Below, piece after piece: positions 3,316 through 29,059 of a stretch of DNA of 34,856 nt; position 1 is the first letter of the stretch; the number at the start of each line of letters is the position of its first letter. The notes beneath the pieces are model-generated. The model was not told the origin of the DNA and did no database searches. It saw only the letters and a list, made by a program, of their open reading frames with translations. Origin of the DNA: Elainella saxicola E1 (GTDB lineage Bacteria; Cyanobacteriota; Cyanobacteriia; Elainellales; Elainellaceae); contig LUGL01000098.1 in assembly GCA_002796835.1 (NCBI GenBank), forward strand, positions 1-34,856, given 5' to 3'. The position numbers and the translations under genes were made by a program.

Positions 3316-3324
3316 ATTTTGCCC

Positions 3325-4566
3325 ATGCCTGCTCAACGAAATCCTACGCGGCAGCGCTTAATCCATGCTGCACTTAGACTATTTACAGCTCAAGGAGTAA
3401 CGGATACCACGACAAAACAAATCGCAGAACTGGCAGGGGTGAATGAAGTCACTCTATTTCGTCATTTTGGTAATAAACATGGATTGCTGCTAGCAGTGAT
3501 TGAAGAAGCAGCTGTATTCAGCCAATTAGGCCAAACCTTAATTCAGCAAGCCAGTCAGGCTGACAGTATTCACCAGGCTCTCAAAGACTATGCAACAGCG
3601 TGCTTACAGGCGATCGAGCGAGTTCCAGAAGTTGTGCGATCGGTAGTTGGAGAAGCAGGGCAATTTCCTTCTGAAAATCGAGAAGCATTGGGGCGTGGCT
3701 TTACCCAGGCCAATCATTATGTGGCCGAGTACTTTCAGACTGTAATTGACCATGGAAAATTGCAAACCCATCTGCCTGCTGACAAATTGGCCAGTCTTTT
3801 GAATGGCATGCTATTAGGCTATGCCGTGATCGAATTCACAAGTGAATTTCACAATCTTTGGCAAAATCGAGATGATTTTTTAGAAAATCTGGTTACCCTA
3901 TTTCTACATGGTGCAGTCTCTTCTCCAGATTCTCAGAACTCTTTGCTGCTCCAGCAATCCAATGCTACTACCCCAGAAACAAGTATTCCATTTGTGACTG
4001 ATCTGCCTGCAGATATCGTGCATCAAATTCTGCAACAGGGCAAAAAGACAGGTCTTCAGGAATATGCACTAATTTACGTGCTATTTGGTGCTGGATTAAA
4101 GTCATCCGAAGTAGTTCGATTACAACGATCGCACTACATTAACGATAGCCAGCATCAGATTTTACGCATCATCAATGGGCAAAATCGTCATGTTCCGATT
4201 AATCAGTGGATTATGGGGAAACGCTATGGCTCTTACACTCGCAACCCTTTAACCCAATGGCTGAAAGCGCGCAAAGATGAGCAACCTGCGTTATTTCTAA
4301 ACTCTGTTGGGGAACCACTTTCAGAACCCGAATTATGCCAGCAGTGGCAGATATGGACCGCAGAGTTTTCTACTTCTGATGGCCAACCGATCGCCATTGA
4401 GCAAACTCAGCAAACCTGGTGTGTGGAAATGCTGGGCCGAGGCATCACAGTAGATGAACTGTCTGTTTTAACAGGCTATGATGCTACTCAACTCCAGCCC
4501 TATGCAGCGAGGGCAAAAGAAAAAGCCGTTTTAGAACAAGCCATGCGTCTCGATCGCAAAGCTTGA
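3325..4566 (+). CDS. TetR-family regulator fused to a degenerate tyrosine-recombinase-like domain
   Basis: The 413-aa protein has two parts. Residues about 8-55 are a TetR_N helix-turn-helix (RLIHAALRLFTAQGVTDTTT, then IAELAGVNEVTLFRHFGNK), followed by a helical ligand/dimer domain to about 200. After a Ser/Thr/Gln linker, residues about 225-405 resemble the catalytic domain of phage integrases/XerC (LIYVLFGAGLKSSEVVRLQR; later ITVDELSVLTGYDATQLQPY). The first catalytic Arg is replaced by Lys in GLKSSEV and no HxLRH box is recognisable (the place reads EQTQQTWCVEML), so DNA strand transfer is unlikely. I start at ATG 3325; an in-frame TTG at 3319 is also possible, and neither has a good Shine-Dalgarno. 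It is divergent from desC with shared operators, so it probably represses itself and desC. Confidence 0.85.
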   Translation: MPAQRNPTRQRLIHAALRLFTAQGVTDTTTKQIAELAGVNEVTLFRHFGNKHGLLLAVIEEAAVFSQLGQTLIQQASQADSIHQALKDYATACLQAIERVPEVVRSVVGEAGQFPSENREALGRGFTQANHYVAEYFQTVIDHGKLQTHLPADKLASLLNGMLLGYAVIEFTSEFHNLWQNRDDFLENLVTLFLHGAVSSPDSQNSLLLQQSNATTPETSIPFVTDLPADIVHQILQQGKKTGLQEYALIYVLFGAGLKSSEVVRLQRSHYINDSQHQILRIINGQNRHVPINQWIMGKRYGSYTRNPLTQWLKARKDEQPALFLNSVGEPLSEPELCQQWQIWTAEFSTSDGQPIAIEQTQQTWCVEMLGRGITVDELSVLTGYDATQLQPYAARAKEKAVLEQAMRLDRKA

Positions 4567-14355: not shown

Positions 14356-15312
14356 CTAATCCAGCAAAGATTCAAGCTGTCCTACCAGCTTTTCCAAAAG
14401 CTTAGCTTTTTTAGGATCCTCCCACACCTTGGCCTGCTTTAGCTTGCGATAAACAACCTGCATTCGATCGGGCAATTTCACCACTTCAGAACTCACAGGC
14501 TGATTTCGTAAAGTTTGCAGGCGCTTTTTGATCTCTCGGACTGAAAGATTCGTTTGCACCGTTTCCTGTAGAAGCTGCGATCGTTGCTCCTGATCCCGCA
14601 ATTGAGCGATCGTCCTAGCTTTTGTGTATTCAATTTCACCCTGGCGCAGCGAATCCAGAACTTCTCCAGGCAAATTCAATAACGGCAAGCGGTGGCTGCG
14701 AAAGCTATCTGGAGTGAGTCGGCCAATTACAGAAAAGACATGTTCGATCGTCTGCCACTGACTACGAACAACGTTGTTCGTAATTTCAGTTCCCTGTTTT
14801 TGCAGGTTAGCCACATGATTTAGCAGCGAAATAACTTCAGCCGGAGAACATTCGAGTCGCACAGAAAGCAGCTGAAGGATCGCTTCTGTCTCTTCAACCG
14901 GATTCAGATCCTCCCGTTGCAAGTTCTCCAGAATCGAAACCTGGACAGCATCCTGATCATCCAAATCGCGAATCACGACTGGCACTTTATCCAGTTTCAG
15001 ATCTTGAGCCGCCCGATAGCGACGTTCCCCCGCAACCAGCTCGTATTCCCCAGAAGGAAGCGGTCGCACGAGCAGGGGTTGAAGAATGCCATGTTCTTGA
15101 ATCGAGACAATCAGACTTTCCATCGCCTGAGCAGAAAAATAGCGTCGGGGCTGTTGAGCTGGGAGATGGAGCTGATCCAACGGCAAATACTGCTCGGCCA
15201 ACTCTGTTCCAGTGACCTGACTGCCACGAGTCACGCCAACAAAATCTAAAAACTGCTTCGTCTTGTTGGGAAATTCCACCTCATCTGCCATCGAGGGACG
15301 ACGCTTAGACAT
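14356..15312 (-). CDS. parB: ParB-type partition protein
   Basis: The 318-aa protein contains the ParB/Srx CTPase domain at about 43-145 with GERRYR (95-100) and ENLQRED (129-135), the CTP- and DNA-binding signatures. The following helix-turn-helix region (about 145-240) is less canonical, and the C-terminal tail is basic and helical (IKKRLQTLRNQ ... KLLEKLVGQLESLLD) for dimerisation. It loads onto parS and works with ParA to segregate the replicon. I prefer ATG 15312, two bases after the ParA stop; an in-frame TTG at 15318 would overlap. Its coding sequence contains a perfect 20-bp palindrome (14763-14782), a candidate parS. The gene belongs to a plasmid-type replication block. Confidence 0.93.
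   Translation of the reverse strand: MSKRRPSMADEVEFPNKTKQFLDFVGVTRGSQVTGTELAEQYLPLDQLHLPAQQPRRYFSAQAMESLIVSIQEHGILQPLLVRPLPSGEYELVAGERRYRAAQDLKLDKVPVVIRDLDDQDAVQVSILENLQREDLNPVEETEAILQLLSVRLECSPAEVISLLNHVANLQKQGTEITNNVVRSQWQTIEHVFSVIGRLTPDSFRSHRLPLLNLPGEVLDSLRQGEIEYTKARTIAQLRDQEQRSQLLQETVQTNLSVREIKKRLQTLRNQPVSSEVVKLPDRMQVVYRKLKQAKVWEDPKKAKLLEKLVGQLESLLD
14763..14782. repeat. Perfect 20-bp palindrome inside parB, candidate parS
   Basis: TACGAACAACGTTGTTCGTA is fully self-complementary over 20 bp and lies within the parB coding region. ParB proteins load at palindromic parS sites, usually within or near parAB. The sequence is unlike the chromosomal consensus TGTTTCACGTGAAACA, so a replicon-specific parS is the inference. 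Confidence 0.5.
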
Positions 15313-15314
15313 AC

Positions 15315-16067
15315 TCAAACTCGCTCCGCAATCAAGTTCGCAATGGTTTGATAGGGCTGAACCAACTTCTTCTCACTGCTGTATTGATGAATTGGCTCGC
15401 GGGCCAGATTCGATTCAGGAAATCGTACAGATTTGGGCACCGGGTCAAAGATTTTAATATCTGTAAGTTTGGTGCGCAAAGTTTTCAGGGCATCTTGAGT
15501 CGTAATCGTTCGATCGGCCATGGTCGGCAGGACTCCCAAAATTTGCAGATGGGGATGAGTATCTTCATCTCGCAATCCATCGATCGTTTCCAAAAGCTGT
15601 CGCAATCCCTCCAGAGCAAAAAACTGGCACTGCACCGGAATTAAAACTGCATCTGCCGCCATCAGGGCATTCAGGGTAAGCATCCCCAAGCTAGGAGGAC
15701 AATCCACCAAAATAAACGGAAACATCTGGCGGAGCGGATTTAGCTTCTTCCGTAAAATTCGGCTATTGTCAGCAACCGTCAGGATTTGTTTCTCGCCGGT
15801 TGCTAAAGAGATATCAGCAGGCAATAAATGAATGCCTGAATCAGTCTCAATCACTGCGGCTAAAGCCGTTTGTTTCCGATCGATCAAAACCTCATAAGCT
15901 GTCGTTTGGCCAGAGGCAATCCGGACACCCAGGCCAGTGGTCAAATTTCCCTGCGGATCAAAATCTACTAAAAGACAGGGGCCACGCTTCGCTAACAACC
16001 CACCCAACGCGATCGTAGAGGTTGTTTTTGCGACTCCACCCTTCTGATTGGCGATCGCGATGATCAT
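15315..16067 (-). CDS. parA: ParA-type partition ATPase
   Basis: This 250-aa Walker-type cytoskeletal ATPase has the deviant Walker A KGGVAKTT (residues 9-16) at the very N-terminus, the A' motif LLVDFDPQGN, and Walker B FILVDCPPSLG. Having no N-terminal DNA-binding extension, it is like the chromosomal/type Ib short ParA proteins. It forms nucleoid-bound gradients that move ParB-parS complexes. It is followed directly by parB and preceded by an EamA transporter gene (90 bp gap) downstream of the replication gene. Confidence 0.95.
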   Translation of the reverse strand: MIIAIANQKGGVAKTTSTIALGGLLAKRGPCLLVDFDPQGNLTTGLGVRIASGQTTAYEVLIDRKQTALAAVIETDSGIHLLPADISLATGEKQILTVADNSRILRKKLNPLRQMFPFILVDCPPSLGMLTLNALMAADAVLIPVQCQFFALEGLRQLLETIDGLRDEDTHPHLQILGVLPTMADRTITTQDALKTLRTKLTDIKIFDPVPKSVRFPESNLAREPIHQYSSEKKLVQPYQTIANLIAERV

Positions 16068-17633: not shown

Positions 17634-17650
17634 TTAAATAGCCCCTAACC
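17634..17650 (-). repeat. 17-bp inverted-repeat copy at the 3' end of the replication gene
   Basis: TTAAATAGCCCCTAACC overlaps the replication-protein stop codon. On the minus strand its GTTAGGG can pair with CCCTAAC (complement of 17591-17597), and a T-rich run follows, so this segment could also act as an attenuator or weak terminator between the rep gene and the small gene. Confidence 0.6.
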
Positions 17651-20600
17651 AGATTCAGTTTTAGGCGAGCAATCTGGAAAGCCTATTCCAGACAGGTCAA
17701 ATTTTTCATTTACAGTAGCAATCTGAGAAATGTATTTTTGCCAATGGCTGAATACATAATGTTTAGATTCAGTGAGCTGCTTCAGGATATTCTGCTGGTC
17801 CGAGCGGATAACTTCAGCATAATATCTAGAAATGCCTGTTTCAGCCGACTTAGCAACTGGATTAACTCCTAGCTCCTTTGTGCTTACAGAAGGGTTTTCA
17901 ACAGGTTGGCTATCTGAAACGGAAGTGAATGTTTTTCCAGGGTGCTCTGATCCAGCCGCAGAGAAATATAGATCTACTATATCTGGGGGTGGATCAATAA
18001 CAGAATCAATACTATTAGCGTCTAATGTTAAAATATGCTTCTCAGAAGTTTTTCGATCGCTTTTTTGCCATTCTTTGAAGATCATTTCTCGATCATCTTG
18101 AGGAGGTTGAAATTGATAAACTCGTAAACCGCCTCGTCTTCCATCCTCTGCTCGATCGCGACGGATACAATTTAATTTGAGCCCAAGTTTACTCAGTAGT
18201 GCTTGAACAATCTCGATCGGCGACATTCGCTCTGAGACAGTCAGATTGAACAGTGTCTTAATGTCCTGCTTGTACTGGAGACAATAAGACATGACTTGCT
18301 GGACATCTGAATCTGTTGCGCGGACCTGACGTTGCAGATCAAGAAAATTCAAAATTCCTAACCCTTTCAAGGCTTCTACCTGAGCCGTGAGCAAACGGAT
18401 ATCCTGGAGAACAACCTTCCCATTGCCTCGATTCAGGTGAAGCTGCCATTCCTGGCGATCCTGTAACTTTACCCATTCAGAATTGTGGATTAGGTAATAA
18501 TGCAGCCTGAGTTTTTGAAACCACCCTTCATCATCTTTCATCTTTAAATCCGAGGTGACTGGAATGGCGTAGCGTTTCTTCAGCTCATGTTTTTGAATGG
18601 CACATCGCTCCAGCCAGGTTTTCGATCGTTGATCTTTCAGTAACTCATAATCAAAGTTCTGAATTTCTGGTGCCGATGAGACGGCGATTGCATCGTGAAC
18701 CCGACAATCGTTGCGGACCTGGCTCATTTCTACAAAGATCGCCTGACTGACCAACTCAGGGCAGGCTTCTGTCCCAACCACTGTTAGATTATGACCTTCG
18801 AGTTCTAAACCTTCAATCAGGCGCTGGCGAAATTTCCAAAGGGAAGCATTAACTCGGGCAGCCATTCTGGCCCAGGTTCTTAACGTAATTGGATCGGTTT
18901 GGCGATCGATATCAAAATCGACATCTTTTAATAGCGCAATGTTGTATTTCACAAACCTTGTTGTGGAATTGGCAATCTCTTGGTAATTACAGCTACCGTT
19001 CCCTACCTTGCCAGGACCGAAGGGGGCTGCCCAAATATAACGAGGAACCGCAGAACGAACGCGAGCTAAAGCTTGACGAGCCTCAGAATCAGGAATGACT
19101 CCCTGAAAGATGCCGAAAACCGCTTTAAAGTGAGTTTTATGGTCAATGCTGATACCTGTACCGATCGTAGGTGTGGCAATTACGATGTCATACCGAATGA
19201 TTGCTGCATTGAGGTGTTCTGCAATTTGGTGAGCTGGATGGCTTGGATCGGTAACCGTTTCTGAATCGATACGTAGGATTCGTTTGTGGGGAAGCTGCTT
19301 TTTCAGGTAGGTTTCTAGGGTTTTAGAACTCCAGCGACCCTGTGATTTTTGCGAATCAACACAAACGTATACGGCACTGTCCTCTGCGATCCTGATAAGT
19401 TGGGAGATTAGTGGAGCAGGATTGGGGGTTTCATAAAAATGAACCTGCCATGCCTGTTGTGGCTGCCACTCATTCAGAACGATCCATGGAACTGTGAATT
19501 GCTCAGCCAGTCCCAGGATGTAATCTAGCCCTACATTCGATAGGTCGGCGTCTTGGGCAATCAGTAACCCTTGTGTGGTGAGAACAGTTTGGACGAGCTG
19601 ACGCAATGTTTCCAGAATTTTGACTCGATGTTCGTAGCAGGTGGCGGAATTTAATACATGCCAAATCACCTGTTCGAATTCGTCTATGACAACAATTGCC
19701 CCTTGCCAATATTGAGGATTAAACCTGGCCTGGGAAAGCGAGTGCAGCGAATCAATACAAAGTCCATAACTGAATTGATCAGTAGTTTCAGACTGAATCT
19801 CTTCGATCCAGTGAATGCCAACGTTCCGACAAATCGCGCGCCCAAGCTGAATTCGATGGGTGATAACTAGAACCTTACGGCCCGTTTGAGTGGCTTGCTG
19901 AATCAGCTGCTGCAACGCAGTAGTTTTACCCGTTCCTTTCGGACTTTTAATACAAACCAGTCCTGTGTTGGGATAAGAGAGCTGGCTGAGATAGGGTTGG
20001 TTGAGTTTGACTGCGATCGGATAAGTTAAGGCCCATTGTTGTTCTGCCTGCCAATGTCTAAAACTCAAGGCTTGCTGATACAAAGCATCGAATGCTTCTG
20101 CCCCTTGGGAAAGGATGTAATCATCAACACCTTTTTCAGGACCCGGTAGGCAAATAATATGGGTTGAACAGCCTTCTGTTTGTAATAGTTGTCCTAGTCT
20201 GGTTAGAGCGAGTTGAATGTTTTGTAGGGTTGTTGGCCGAATATCGAAATCAAAGCAAAGATAGACAGCTCGATTGGGGGTGGCAAAAACCTGTAGCTCT
20301 GGGATCAGCTGACCAGTTTGCCTGCGATAGCCTGTGAAGATTCCAGGTAGGGCAATTGCCGCATAACCTAAGCTGAGTAGACACCCAGCTTTCTTCTCGC
20401 CTTCTGTAATCACGACAGGGATTTGCTGCTGTTTCACCCAATGCCAGAATCCCTCTGATCGATCGATCGGCAGGGCCACCTGATAGCGTTGCGCAACCCG
20501 TTGCCAGATCAGAGCAGGAACATCCAGTAAGACCAGCCGACTAGACCCTGGTCCCAAAGCAGGGCTGAGATATTTTGCAGGCTGTTGCTTTTCCCGATCT

Positions 20601-20980
20601 AAGACAGGTGTCGCTGCATCAGGCTTGAATCGGCCCCATGTCATCCGTCGCCCAGTGAAAGGGTCGATTCCACTCACCCACCATCCTCGCAGCGCTGTTC
20701 TAGTCTGTTGGCCAAATCGCGTCAGGTTCCAATTGAGCCGTTCGGCGATCGGAAATAAGCTGTCCTCGCTGGGCTGGCTGGCAGTGTCAGTCAAGGTCTC
20801 TACGTTCAAACCGATGATGCCGGGGTCAACCCCGCTTTTTAACCACTCCTGGGCATGATCAGGGGCAGCTTTGCCGATCCATCTCTGAACAGGCTCACCT
20901 TGATTGCACGGGTTCACCTGCCGATATGAGTCGATCGTTGTTATTTCAGAAACAGACATGGGACGACCCCAATAAACCAT
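17645..20980 (-). CDS. Plasmid replication protein, CyRepA1 family
   Basis: The 1111-aa protein combines an N-terminal DUF3854/Toprim-like primase region (residues about 185-290: IPVVITEGEKKAGCLLSLGY with E193, then VYLCFDFDIRPTT) with a P-loop helicase-like ATPase (Walker A PKGTGKTT at 347-354, then VLVITHRIQLG; Walker B IVVIDEFEQ). This is the architecture of cyanobacterial CyRepA1 plasmid initiators, which open and prime the origin. The C-terminal 250 residues are poorly conserved, ending in a Ser-rich stretch. The start is at ATG 20980; M8 (20959) is an alternative with a better-spaced G-rich sequence upstream. It lies next to an iteron-bearing non-coding region and upstream of parA/parB on the same strand. 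Confidence 0.87.
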   Translation of the reverse strand: MVYWGRPMSVSEITTIDSYRQVNPCNQGEPVQRWIGKAAPDHAQEWLKSGVDPGIIGLNVETLTDTASQPSEDSLFPIAERLNWNLTRFGQQTRTALRGWWVSGIDPFTGRRMTWGRFKPDAATPVLDREKQQPAKYLSPALGPGSSRLVLLDVPALIWQRVAQRYQVALPIDRSEGFWHWVKQQQIPVVITEGEKKAGCLLSLGYAAIALPGIFTGYRRQTGQLIPELQVFATPNRAVYLCFDFDIRPTTLQNIQLALTRLGQLLQTEGCSTHIICLPGPEKGVDDYILSQGAEAFDALYQQALSFRHWQAEQQWALTYPIAVKLNQPYLSQLSYPNTGLVCIKSPKGTGKTTALQQLIQQATQTGRKVLVITHRIQLGRAICRNVGIHWIEEIQSETTDQFSYGLCIDSLHSLSQARFNPQYWQGAIVVIDEFEQVIWHVLNSATCYEHRVKILETLRQLVQTVLTTQGLLIAQDADLSNVGLDYILGLAEQFTVPWIVLNEWQPQQAWQVHFYETPNPAPLISQLIRIAEDSAVYVCVDSQKSQGRWSSKTLETYLKKQLPHKRILRIDSETVTDPSHPAHQIAEHLNAAIIRYDIVIATPTIGTGISIDHKTHFKAVFGIFQGVIPDSEARQALARVRSAVPRYIWAAPFGPGKVGNGSCNYQEIANSTTRFVKYNIALLKDVDFDIDRQTDPITLRTWARMAARVNASLWKFRQRLIEGLELEGHNLTVVGTEACPELVSQAIFVEMSQVRNDCRVHDAIAVSSAPEIQNFDYELLKDQRSKTWLERCAIQKHELKKRYAIPVTSDLKMKDDEGWFQKLRLHYYLIHNSEWVKLQDRQEWQLHLNRGNGKVVLQDIRLLTAQVEALKGLGILNFLDLQRQVRATDSDVQQVMSYCLQYKQDIKTLFNLTVSERMSPIEIVQALLSKLGLKLNCIRRDRAEDGRRGGLRVYQFQPPQDDREMIFKEWQKSDRKTSEKHILTLDANSIDSVIDPPPDIVDLYFSAAGSEHPGKTFTSVSDSQPVENPSVSTKELGVNPVAKSAETGISRYYAEVIRSDQQNILKQLTESKHYVFSHWQKYISQIATVNEKFDLSGIGFPDCSPKTESG

Positions 20981-21034
20981 TTCCTGGTTATATCAGGCGC
21001 GTTTCAGCCACTTTGGCCTCTATGGGTAGCCGTT

Positions 21035-21713
21035 TGTAATCAACTTGATAACAGTAATTTGTAATCACTTCAGGTGCAGCTTCTGGTTAAATCCGGTCAG
21101 CACGGGATCTAGAAACTTTATCTTGGGGGCAGGGGTCTAGAGTGTTTGGGAAGTCCCTCTAGAAAGGGATGGGGTTTGGGGTCTAGAAAGTTTGATTTGG
21201 GGGGTCTAGAAGGGGTTGGGAGTGGGTTCTAGAAAGCTTAGGGTCGAGGGTCTAGAGGGGGAATCTCAATAGCTTGGGGGGTAGGTTTTAGAGTGATCTG
21301 TAATCGGAGCGTCCATTTGGGGTTCAGGCTCTAGAGTGATTTTGGGCTTCAATGACCGTAAAACCTGGCTTGTATGGACCAATCGTTGTAATCACCCCAA
21401 AACGGTGAAGTCACTGATTACGCAAGTTTGCGGCAAAACCATCCCAAAACGGACGATCGCTCAGGAGTTGATTACAGGCTTTGTCTAGACCCTGACCCCC
21501 AACCCATGATTACAGATCCTGGTTCTAGAGGCTAACCCCATGATTGACAAATTTGTAAGCGCTTGAATCGATAAAAGCCTTGCTATAACTGACTTAAAGC
21601 AATTACTGCTCTAGGCTAACAAGTTTGAGTTGTAATCACTTTCTGTAATCACTCGGCTCCTAGAGCGAATGAGCCAGCTTTGATTACACTCCCTGTAATC
21701 ACTTCTGTAATCA
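21035..21713. repeat. TGTAATCA box family, ten exact copies and two near copies
   Basis: Exact copies start at 21035, 21060, 21387, 21631, 21644, 21694 and 21706 (plus) and at 21469, 21507 and 21681 (minus). One-mismatch copies lie at 21299 and 21415. Several extend to TGTAATCACTT. By chance an 8-mer would be expected about 0.02 times in this length, so this is a genuine repeat family, perhaps binding sites of a second origin or copy-control protein. The last copy overlaps the cry-DASH stop codon. Confidence 0.82.
21108..21335. repeat. TCTAGA-cored iteron array
   Basis: TCTAGA occurs at 21108, 21136, 21158, 21182, 21205, 21228, 21251 and 21330, with TTTAGA at 21287; two more exact copies follow at 21484 and 21524. 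Copies 2 to 7 are spaced 22, 24, 23, 23 and 23 bp, about two helical turns, each followed by an A/G-rich then G-rich segment on the plus strand. Regular phasing on one DNA face is typical of initiator-binding iterons. Confidence 0.8.
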
Positions 21714-23183
21714 GGCTTTAGCCCGTCGAACAGCGGCATTGTAGCGTTTCTCCTGAGCCGCTGCCGATTGGAACAAGTCCACCATTGGATAGGGATAATC
21801 AATACCGAGTTGCACCCCATACTGCTTTTGTTCAACCGTGGTCAGCTTCCAGGGTTCATGGACTTTTTCAGCGGGAAGGGCTGCTAACTCTGGCAACCAG
21901 TGTTTGACATATTCCCCCTGGCGATCGTAATCCTGCGCTTGTTTTGTAATATTGAAGAATCGAAACCCGCGTGCATCGTTCCCGACTCCGGCTGAGTAAT
22001 TCCAGTTTCCCCAATTGCTGCATACGTCGTAGTCAATCAGCTGCGACTCAAACCATTCTGCACCCATCCGCCAGTCAATCCCAAGATTTTTGGTCAAGAA
22101 ACTGGCTACATTCTGGCGTCCCCGATTAGACATGAATCCGGTGGCTGCCAATTCCTTCATGTTGGCATCGATTAAGGGGTAGCCTGTCTTTCCCTTCTGC
22201 CATTGTTCGAACTGTTGCCAGTCCTGTTGCCAGTTCATTGAGAGGCCTTGTATGCCCGATCGGAGAAAGATGCGGTTCCCATGCTTTGCACCAATGAACC
22301 GAAAATAATCTCGCCAGAGCAGCTCAAAAATTAACCAGTAGGTTGAATCGTTGCGTACTCTTGTGTCTTCATACTGCAATACCTGGTTGTAGATGTAGCG
22401 GGGCGATAAACAGCCGGTAGCTAACCAGGCAGAGAATTTAGAAGAATAGTTAGCCCCTAACATACCATTGCGGGTTTCTTTATAGGTTTTTAAGAGATCT
22501 TGTTGCCAGAAATATTCGTGCAGTCTGGCCAGTCCAGCTGTTTCACCTCCCTGAAAGACCAAAGCAGCACCTGAATTTGGCTGAGTATGTTGTAGGCCCA
22601 GGTGGGTTAATGGAGGGATTTCTCCTGGGTCTACTTCTGACGGAAATGGCGGTAGCTGCTGGGGAGGCGGCAATGAGGGGCGGACAAGTGATTGCTTTTC
22701 AACCTGTTTACGAAAAGTTGTAAATAATTCTGGGATGTTTGACCGATCGAAAGGCAAATCATCGGGGTGGTAGAGGGTCTGCCCCCAGAACGTTTTGATT
22801 ACAATATGGCGATCATCTAAGGCTTGTTTAACAGCTGTTTCAACAGCTACCTCTTCTGTGGTGACTTCTTGGTAGTAATAGATTTCGGTAATATTAAGTT
22901 GCTCGACCAGTTGTGGAATAACTTGCTCAGGTTTACCCAAGCGAATAATCAAATTGCTATCCAGCGCTTGAAACGAGTGCTGTAGGTTGCTCACGCATTC
23001 CACGAGAAATTGGGCACGAATCGCTCCGGTCTTAGGAAACCCGAAAGAAGTGGTGTTGAATTGGCGTGGATCAAAGCAGTAGACTGGAATGGTAACTGCG
23101 TTTTTCCGAAGGGCTGCATCAAGCGGGGTATGATCATGCAGGCGCAGATCGTTACGGTGCCAAATAAGAATACGGTTTTTCAA
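21711..23183 (-). CDS. cry: Cryptochrome DASH / photolyase-family flavoprotein
   Basis: This 490-aa protein has a photolyase alpha/beta N-terminal domain (RILIWHRNDLRLHDHTPLDA), in which CRY-DASH proteins bind an antenna cofactor, and an FAD-binding C-terminal domain (ELLWRDYFRF; GYPLIDANMKELAATGFMSN; SNWGNWNYSAGVGNDARGFR; YVKHWLPEL). NYSAGVGNDARGFRFF and the overall length are diagnostic of CRY-DASH rather than class I CPD photolyase. These proteins repair CPDs in single-stranded DNA and may signal blue light. The start must be TTG 23183: an in-frame stop lies 13 codons upstream with no ATG or GTG between, and the next Met is far inside. Its stop codon touches the origin repeats. Confidence 0.92.
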   Translation of the reverse strand: MKNRILIWHRNDLRLHDHTPLDAALRKNAVTIPVYCFDPRQFNTTSFGFPKTGAIRAQFLVECVSNLQHSFQALDSNLIIRLGKPEQVIPQLVEQLNITEIYYYQEVTTEEVAVETAVKQALDDRHIVIKTFWGQTLYHPDDLPFDRSNIPELFTTFRKQVEKQSLVRPSLPPPQQLPPFPSEVDPGEIPPLTHLGLQHTQPNSGAALVFQGGETAGLARLHEYFWQQDLLKTYKETRNGMLGANYSSKFSAWLATGCLSPRYIYNQVLQYEDTRVRNDSTYWLIFELLWRDYFRFIGAKHGNRIFLRSGIQGLSMNWQQDWQQFEQWQKGKTGYPLIDANMKELAATGFMSNRGRQNVASFLTKNLGIDWRMGAEWFESQLIDYDVCSNWGNWNYSAGVGNDARGFRFFNITKQAQDYDRQGEYVKHWLPELAALPAEKVHEPWKLTTVEQKQYGVQLGIDYPYPMVDLFQSAAAQEKRYNAAVRRAKA

Positions 23184-28775: not shown

Positions 28776-28802
28776 TTGCTTCCAGCGAAAACATGCTATC
28801 TT
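28776..28802 (+). promoter_or_regulatory. Candidate promoter of the cobalamin-riboswitch transcript
   Basis: TTGCTT (28776-28781) and an extended -10 TGCTATCTT (hexamer 28797-28802) are 15 bp apart, placing transcription start near 28809, just before the riboswitch P1 stem. The rest of 28649-28775 holds no visible gene. Confidence 0.4.
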
Positions 28803-28811
28803 TGAAAGCTA

Positions 28812-29022
28812 ATCGGTTCTAATGGGGAGCAGCCATTAGACGCAAGGGGGAAAGTGCAGTGCAAATCTGCCGCTGTCCCGCAACTGTGAGCCAATTTGAG
28901 ATTGCCGATTTGAAATTTTAGATCAAGTTGCTTCGCTGAATCAGGCTTCGATCAGCTTAGCCACCCAGTCCAAAATCGAAAATCAAAAATCGAAAATTGC
29001 GCCAGCCAGGATGCCCGCCGAT
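28812..29022 (+). promoter_or_regulatory. Cobalamin (adenosylcobalamin) riboswitch
   Basis: The conserved core is plain: GGGGGAAAGTGCAGTGCAAA, then GCTGTCCCGCAACTGTGAG (about 28845-28889), and the 3' element GCCAGGATGCCCGCC. The ends pair as P1: ATCGG (28812-28816) with CCGAT (29018-29022). A peripheral arm carries an A-rich tandem stretch (CAAAATCGAAAATCAAAAAT at 28971-28990, and on). It controls the downstream DUF1636-like and cobW genes. The first ribosome-binding site is 27 bases past P1 and no T-run is seen, so translational control is the likelier mode. The rest of the 28649-29059 gap holds only the candidate promoter. Confidence 0.93.
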
Positions 29023-29059
29023 CGCAGCAGCTCTACTATTCTTTCTGCGAGGTACAGAA

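Follow-up and report, generated by a model that had tools for sequence, protein, structure and literature searches.

An asymmetric, phased repeat array ahead of cyanobacterial replication genes and an XRE/HTH protein as its candidate reader

A phased array of asymmetric, G-rich TCTAGA sites lies directly upstream of a CyRepA1-family replication gene in the 34,856-nucleotide stretch of DNA analysed here (the window). Its distribution suggests that the array's constant companion, which we named XHP (about 500 aa, with an XRE/HTH domain at the C-terminus), and not the replication enzyme, would be the reader of these tags. We put at about 0.68 the probability that XHP reads the array within a modular origin and copy-control region with interchangeable replicative enzymes. 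The array, its grammar, its conservation and its independence of the type of Rep were computed from the genomes, and the association with XHP led to three further arrays.

The window comprises bases 1-34856 of contig C39 (92198 bp), from a genome of 8.7 Mb in 284 contigs. A 730-bp gap (20981-21710) separates the CyRepA1 gene (17645..20980, minus strand, 1111 aa; NF042913, 442 bits against a curated cut-off of 200) from a DASH cryptochrome (cryDASH) gene (21711-23183, minus strand). Since both genes are on the minus strand, this gap, which contains all the repeats, lies past the stop of the cryptochrome gene and upstream of rep. The replication protein carries DUF3854 at residues 178-296 (4e-42), followed by an SF2 helicase from about residue 320 (fold matches cover the model range 319-764). 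The partition genes parB (14356-15318) and parA (15315-16067), both minus strand, lie on the same segment about 5 kb from the array. In the whole genome there are nine CyRepA1 matches, seven of them above the curated cut-off. Elsewhere in the window we noted a cobalamin riboswitch (58 bits, 28799-29036) near cobW and cbiG-type genes, and a 415-aa ORF (3319-4566), possibly a fusion, that begins with TetR_N and TetR_C_7 matches and ends in a Phage_integrase match.

Ten TCTAGA sequences occur in the gap, starting at 21108, 21136, 21158, 21182, 21205, 21228, 21251, 21330, 21484 and 21524, that is, with successive spacings of 28, 22, 24, 23, 23, 23, 79, 154 and 40 bp. The initial annotation had described six copies spaced 22, 24, 23, 23 and 23 bp in a region (21108-21335) that is G-rich on one strand, and in this it was right: six phased copies occupy 21136-21256, the copy at 21108 stands 28 bp off, and the plus strand has a G skew of +0.548 across 21108-21335. 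The copies at 21484 and 21524 fall outside that range. In 20000 dinucleotide shuffles of the gap the count never exceeded 3 (none equalled the observed 10), and the longest chain at 22-24 bp, six copies in the gap, reached at most 3. TCTAGA is found 19 times in the window (6.35 expected), and this locus is the only one in the 8.7-Mb genome with three TCTAGA at 20-26 bp start-to-start.

An alignment of 33 sites from four loci, in which TCTAGA was the anchor and is therefore invariant by construction, yields an asymmetric 19-bp unit, TTGGGGnnAGGGkTCTAGA. The palindromic 6-mer that had been proposed as the core was accordingly rejected; the conserved part is the longer, asymmetric site. A further element that had escaped description, the TGTAATCA/TGATTACA box, occurs all through the gap (nine boxes), and the recurrent composite is a G element, six bases and TGTAATCA. 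Considering all pairs of TCTAGA-like and TGTAAT sequences within 0-20 bp in eight loci, the spacer is exactly 6 in 16 of 23; seven of the eight loci have such pairs, with none at L297.

Reading away from rep, the gap begins with an operator-like inverted pair, TGTAATCA-N3-TGATAACA (21035..21053), which has counterparts upstream of rep in all four loci; its second half is degenerate in the window and is TGATTACA in L082, L097 and L090. A TGTAATCA box (21060..21067, plus strand) and the weak G element of the first TCTAGA (21108..21113, plus, PWM 9.5) precede the phased array proper, whose six units extend over 21123..21256 on the plus strand, the one at 21158 being weak (PWM 13.4). Behind it are a composite of a degenerate G element (TTTAGA), 6 bp and TGTAATCG (21287..21306, plus), matched by equivalents behind the arrays of L082 and L097, an isolated G element (TCTAGA at 21330..21335, plus, PWM 22.8) and another TGTAATCA box (21387..21394, plus). 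The two distal TCTAGA adjoin TGATTACA boxes in the inverted sense, and are clearly G-oriented at 21484 and weakly so at 21524. The first belongs to an inverted composite TGATTACA-N7-TCTAGA(CCC) (21469..21489, minus), whose spacer is N6 in L082 and L097; the second, TGATTACA-N9-TCTAGA (21507..21529, minus), has a G element that is weak in either sense (PWM 10.9 and 13.3) and equivalents in L082 (N9) and L097 (N8, GCTAGA). Four TGTAATCA/TGATTACA boxes at 21631+, 21644+, 21681- and 21694+ (21631..21701) complete the series, with 5-bp gaps within pairs that are the same in L082 and L097.

The array is also present upstream of CyRepA1 orthologs at L082, L097 and L090 (54-65% identity for the Rep orthologs compared). 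The window, L082, L097 and L090 have 10, 9, 8 and 6 TCTAGA, where shuffles gave 3-4 at most, and 22-24-bp chains of 6, 6, 6 and 3 copies, where shuffles gave at most 2-3. As the initial annotation had it, this is an iteron-like array upstream of the CyRepA1 gene: the repeats are phased in tandem next to a replication gene and recur in relatives, with steps of 23, 24, 23, 23 and 23 bp in L082 and 22, 23, 23, 23 and 23 bp in L097. These two loci are collinear with the window around rep, and L090 has just the Rep in common. Across the three collinear loci, columns are identical at 111 of 130 motif positions versus 185 of 600 others, in an alignment itself partly anchored by motifs, and degenerate and inverted copies hold their positions as well. 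Boxes and spacing have been kept while the remaining intergenic DNA diverged.

Searching 36 family genomes, we found three phased TCTAGA in 12; five of these, by eye, have G-rich arrays of the window type, and among the other seven that of G018 is upstream of a PrimPol-like gene. The fifth, G015, with sites scoring 20.7, 13.0, 18.2 and 26.5, is the one array away from any CyRepA1, yet it stands beside a PrimPol-like gene. The initial annotation had held that the same array far from rep genes in many genomes would speak against it; phylum-wide, three phased TCTAGA turned up in 11 of 386 genomes and, by eye, a G-rich array of the window type in the window genome alone. A search of the 36 genomes for the composite gave single matches elsewhere in G011, G023, G026:C19 and G029. 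In a viral collection the composite pattern occurred in at least 120 stretches, with one match each in the 80 listed, which we put down to chance, the pattern having just 14 fixed bases; a Rep match was not found in that collection.

The type of array is independent of the kind of replication gene, be it CyRepA1, PrimPol-like or DUF3987. Among CyRepA1 genes, the array accompanies rep at L090 although the other neighbours differ from those of the window, and the L090 Rep groups (100/100) with the Reps of L095, L096 and L099. These three loci have a similar architecture in other letters: next to rep, GTATCn5GTGGA recurs every 22 bp, often with AGTACT 8 bp beyond. The AU test rejects the four TCTAGA Reps as a single clade (p-AU 0.0005) but not the three AGTACT Reps (p-AU 0.28). 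Rep residues explaining the repeat type were considered and rejected, as three columns separate the two groups versus 21 in which L090 sides with the AGTACT Reps; besides the unconserved tail, no segment of the L090 Rep is nearer to the TCTAGA Reps.

The array of G015 lies ahead of the gene for a 636-aa protein that has AEP-like motifs and whose Prim-Pol match is only weak (E 0.064, below cut-off). This PrimPol-like family is matched in 34 of the 36 genomes (in G030 and G033 only in the C-terminal part), and repeats of the same kinds, TCTAGA-N6-TGTCAA composites among them, also stand upstream of its members. The loci with these composites have in common a divergent gene of 646-678 aa (five of seven wider stretches compared), with a C-terminal HTH_3 in the two tested, and a related HTH gene is found upstream of rep at two AGTACT loci (L096, L099) and on pOSC7112.01. 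The latter, a 300-kb conjugative plasmid, has a perfect 21-bp tandem repeat in 2.9 copies between the HTH gene and CyRepA1 (L265, 2593-2653). TCTAGA-N6-TGTCAA composites with PrimPol-like genes were also seen on megabase contigs (L360, G025:C6, 4.26 Mb; L361, G029:C1, 5.8 Mb), so that these modules are probably chromosomal or integrated as well. Upstream of other PrimPol-like genes the repeats of L322 and L325 have the same spacing (24, 25, 31, 25, 75, 25, 31, 25, 34). L313 departs from this series by no more than 1 bp, L308 and L311 have similar ones, and the letters differ between genomes: in these five loci, geometry is kept and sequence drifts.

Deeper CyRepA1 relatives carry ACGCnnnAGTTACAG repeats, which track another divergent gene, of about 370 aa, whether rep is CyRepA1 or PrimPol-like. 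This gene is present at 15 of 53 CyRepA1 loci, nine of which match the ACGCnnnAGTTACAG (class-1) motif, in an expression so strict that it gives zero at the gene-bearing L085, L092, L093, L098, L100 and L101; it is also present at 12 of 30 PrimPol-like loci (L298-L327), 11 of which match (zero at L301). The motif occurs once without the gene (L266). Four loci with the gene (L086, L087, L335, L356) have 3-4 TCTAGA and no composites, and nine PrimPol-like loci without it (L299, L300, L302, L309, L314, L315, L323, L326, L327) show no clear repeat type. The gene was not found at TCTAGA-array, composite or AGTACT loci within the stretches examined, those of PrimPol-like loci being mostly 1.5-kb flanks. 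It diverges from the replication gene across the repeat array (examples are L087:4176-5282 and G000:C108:6629-7693) and is matched in 27 of the 36 family genomes, mostly at about 70% identity. Among the matches listed, its best were at E 0.06 in Pfam and 0.017 in the PDB, with none in NCBIfam, and a relative may exist.

Repeats as a general trait of CyRepA1 genes were rejected. In a 10-mer test, which required a count exceeding that of the best of 12 shuffles by 2 or more, 9 of 43 upstream regions passed; the 20 distant ones (from L104 on) all failed. None of nine further regions passed (pSYSA, pAQ1, pMIC7113.04, Gloeocapsopsis, pOSC7112.01 and four paralogs from the window genome, whose three other matches on C187, C69 and C82, over or near the cut-off, were outside this test). 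The test is conservative, since pOSC7112.01 failed despite its perfect 21-bp repeat.

XHP orthologs (458-510 aa, 63-85% mutual identity) are present in all five array genomes. Nine genomes, hand-picked from the 36 as five with the array and four controls, were searched for the family, and the ortholog group was found in exactly the five. With the XHP of the window genome as query, the best relatives in the controls were at 41% (G019), 40% (G025), 39% (G001) and 27% (G035) identity, G001 being a genus-mate of G000, G002 and G003, and G025 of G026. No neighbouring gene is common to more than two of the five orthologs, so XHP does not behave as a mere core gene at a constant position. All five proteins have an HTH_3 domain (33.5-45.8 bits, Pfam cut-off 23); the remaining 400 or so residues exceed no Pfam cut-off and match nothing in the PDB by sequence at better than E 0.3. 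The segment SQGLIS[LM]IEN, presumably the recognition helix from what is known of XRE domains, is common to all eight XHPs, and the three HTH relatives compared from beside other array types differ in it.

In the window genome the XHP gene is on contig C203, not C39, and no XHP was seen beside the array on C39 or in the examined stretches of the other four genome array loci; likewise, within 8.6-13 kb around XHP in the five genomes there were no array elements scoring 15 or more. The two do occur together on plasmids. A tblastn of XHP against 72,556 plasmids gave 42 records, three of them at 59.9-64.7% identity, and in all three the XHP gene is directly upstream of, and on the same strand as, a replication gene, with the array in between. 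The downstream gene is PrimPol-like in Leptolyngbya NIES-3755 plasmid3, CyRepA1 in Synechococcus PCC 7502 pSYN7502.01 and a DUF3987 gene in Gloeocapsa pGLO7428.02, the last presumed from its position to act in replication. The gaps of NIES-3755, pGLO7428.02 and pSYN7502.01 contain 11, 5 and 0 exact TCTAGA, in 23-bp steps in the first two and with TCTAGT instead in the third (L380), and 11, 0 and 8 TGTAATCA on either strand, with TGTAATA in pGLO7428.02 (L379). Within these gaps 10, 4 and 5 sites score 15 or more; the rest of the three 11-kb stretches has none, and the background is 6 in 585 kb. The fourth match (44% identity, with a different helix) had no adjoining replication gene and no site in its 33-bp gap; the XHP relatives of the other 38 records, beyond these four, are below 44% identity.

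The simplest account of these observations would have XHP read the array, with the enzyme encoded next door loaded or regulated by it. The region would then be the origin and copy-control segment of a plasmid-type replicon, in which the phased TTGGGGnnAGGGkTCTAGA sites, many of them 6 bp from TGTAATCA, may serve as iteron-like sites to which XHP would bind co-operatively along the 23-bp period. The TGTAATCA inverted pair near the start of rep would be a likely autoregulatory or rep-control operator, and bound XHP may direct whichever enzyme is encoded beside the array, CyRepA1 here and PrimPol-like or DUF3987 elsewhere. As C39 has no XHP, that of the window genome would have to act in trans from C203 or through an unassembled link. 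The genome has two further XHP paralogs (40% and 38%), and another member of the family could also be the binder.

The initial annotation had looked to the adjacent Rep as the reader. That CyRepA1 itself binds the array as classical iterons, with XHP only a passenger or modulator, strikes us as quite improbable. It would account for the position directly upstream of rep, kept at L090, and finds some backing in the protein itself. At E 0.01 or better, the CyRepA1 profile matched only replication origin-binding protein chains in the PDB (four sequences, the best being HSV-1 9hgj at 2.8e-6), and Foldseek returned the HSV-1 origin-binding protein (OBP), a box-binding SF2 initiator, as the best match of the full model (pLDDT 73; 1e-14). 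By profile and fold, the CyRepA1 helicase is homologous to this herpesvirus protein, UL9; we found no paper joining the two among the matches listed. By VIA, the two structures align over 547 residues with Z 20.8 and an rmsd of 16.5, which implies that their domains are differently placed, and DEAD-box helicases come next among the fold matches (about 315 residues at a Z of about 19); much of the likeness is therefore due to the SF2 core. The C-terminal domain of CyRepA1 is confidently predicted, helical with a beta-hairpin, and its model gave no significant fold match among those listed (the best, at E 0.56, was a replication terminator protein). Relatives of Rep are also found in 14 phage records, by the helicase part only in the best 10 of the 14, a relationship that presumably leads to N15-like phages. 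Against CyRepA1 as the reader stand the same array ahead of PrimPol-like (L297, L378) and DUF3987 (L379) genes, where it tracks XHP; the grouping of the L090 Rep with Reps that have wholly different repeats; and the CyRepA1 genes with ACGCnnnAGTTACAG repeats, which go with another divergent gene.

XRE proteins are usually regulators, and PDB sequence matches of XHP up to E 0.1 are all in the HTH part, mostly to controllers, repressors and antitoxins. Together with the operator-like pair upstream of rep in four loci, this would fit an array that is purely a transcriptional operator, with XHP as repressor or activator of rep and replication starting elsewhere, a reading that we consider unlikely. 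About 20 sites spread over some 700 bp, the distal inverted composites standing roughly 550 bp away from the start codon, exceed the needs of an operator, and GC skew would in part fit replication from here. The cumulative skew minimum of C39, at 19012, is inside rep, where the left-right step is the strongest of 145 points; in G002 the minimum is 1.3 kb from rep (step 8th of 67) and in G019 a local minimum is 2 kb away, the contig-wide one being elsewhere (step 10th of 121), both steps being moderate. G026 has no step at rep (281st of 315), and the rep of G003 is too near a contig end for this analysis. DnaA boxes, allowing up to one mismatch to two consensus forms, were absent from the window, L097 and L090, with one in L082; to our knowledge, not all iteron origins need DnaA. 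The AT-richest 50-mers of the array loci reach 0.64-0.74, with no strongly AT-rich stretch. A functional G-quadruplex on the plus strand, which the G-runs had brought to mind, is very hard to credit: G4Hunter maxima are 1.64-2.12 in the four loci, but a canonical G3+N1-7 motif lies within the array in the window alone, is absent from L082 and L097 and falls outside the array in L090, and what is kept is the register and the TCTAGA and TGTAATCA letters. Hardly more plausible is a parS-like partition centromere for the ParAB encoded 5 kb away. ParA/ParB relatives do adjoin the array of L097 too, but within 20 kb around that of L090 there are none at E 0.01, the arrays are upstream of rep genes and not of parAB, and the window ParB has ParB_N and HTH_ParB, a type that we take to use short palindromic parS sites.

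With XHP as the reader, a broader and tentative view, to which we give slightly less than even odds, is that origin recognition in cyanobacteria forms a layer separate from the replicase, so that code and enzyme evolve and recombine independently. A few families of DNA-binding proteins (the XHPs; the unclassified gene of about 370 aa), each with its own repeat code and acting in cis or in trans, would load whichever primase or helicase adjoins. None of the CyRepA papers PMC10899382, PMC10079941 and PMC9978351 uses the word 'iteron' in its main text, and among the matches listed in a search of titles and abstracts of the open-licence literature we recognised no paper describing the array. If the reading holds, large cyanobacterial plasmids would have a concrete origin code and a replicon family a recognition protein open to test, and there would be a possible reason why many plasmids with related Reps coexist in one cell (the window genome has seven CyRepA1 matches over cut-off); recognition split from the replicase could also yield orthogonal, compatible vectors for cyanobacterial engineering.

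Iteron-regulated theta origins, of the R6K, pSC101, P1 and F type, are the nearest point of comparison. The window resembles them in its phased direct repeats, about one site per two turns, beside a replication gene, and in the operator-like inverted pair near the start of rep; it differs in that the likely binder is a separate XRE protein and not Rep, in its two box types with a fixed 6-bp grammar, in the sharing of one array type by three kinds of replication gene, and in having no clear DnaA box in the array region. The CyRepA1 replicon pSYSA has the same Rep family and a control region directly upstream of rep, where a sense/antisense RNA pair is described (PMC9978351); unlike the window, the 800 bp upstream of its rep contain no significant repeats. 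HSV-1 UL9 (9hgi/9hgj), the closest PDB match of the CyRepA1 helicase part by both profile and fold, recognises its origin sequence-specifically (PMC12543377), whereas CyRepA1 has an added DUF3854, a likeness seen in the helicase core and an array that tracks another protein. Finally, XHP shares with XRE/Cro-CI regulators its C-terminal HTH_3, above the Pfam cut-off, and differs from them in its 400 or so extra residues and in adjoining replication genes on three plasmids.
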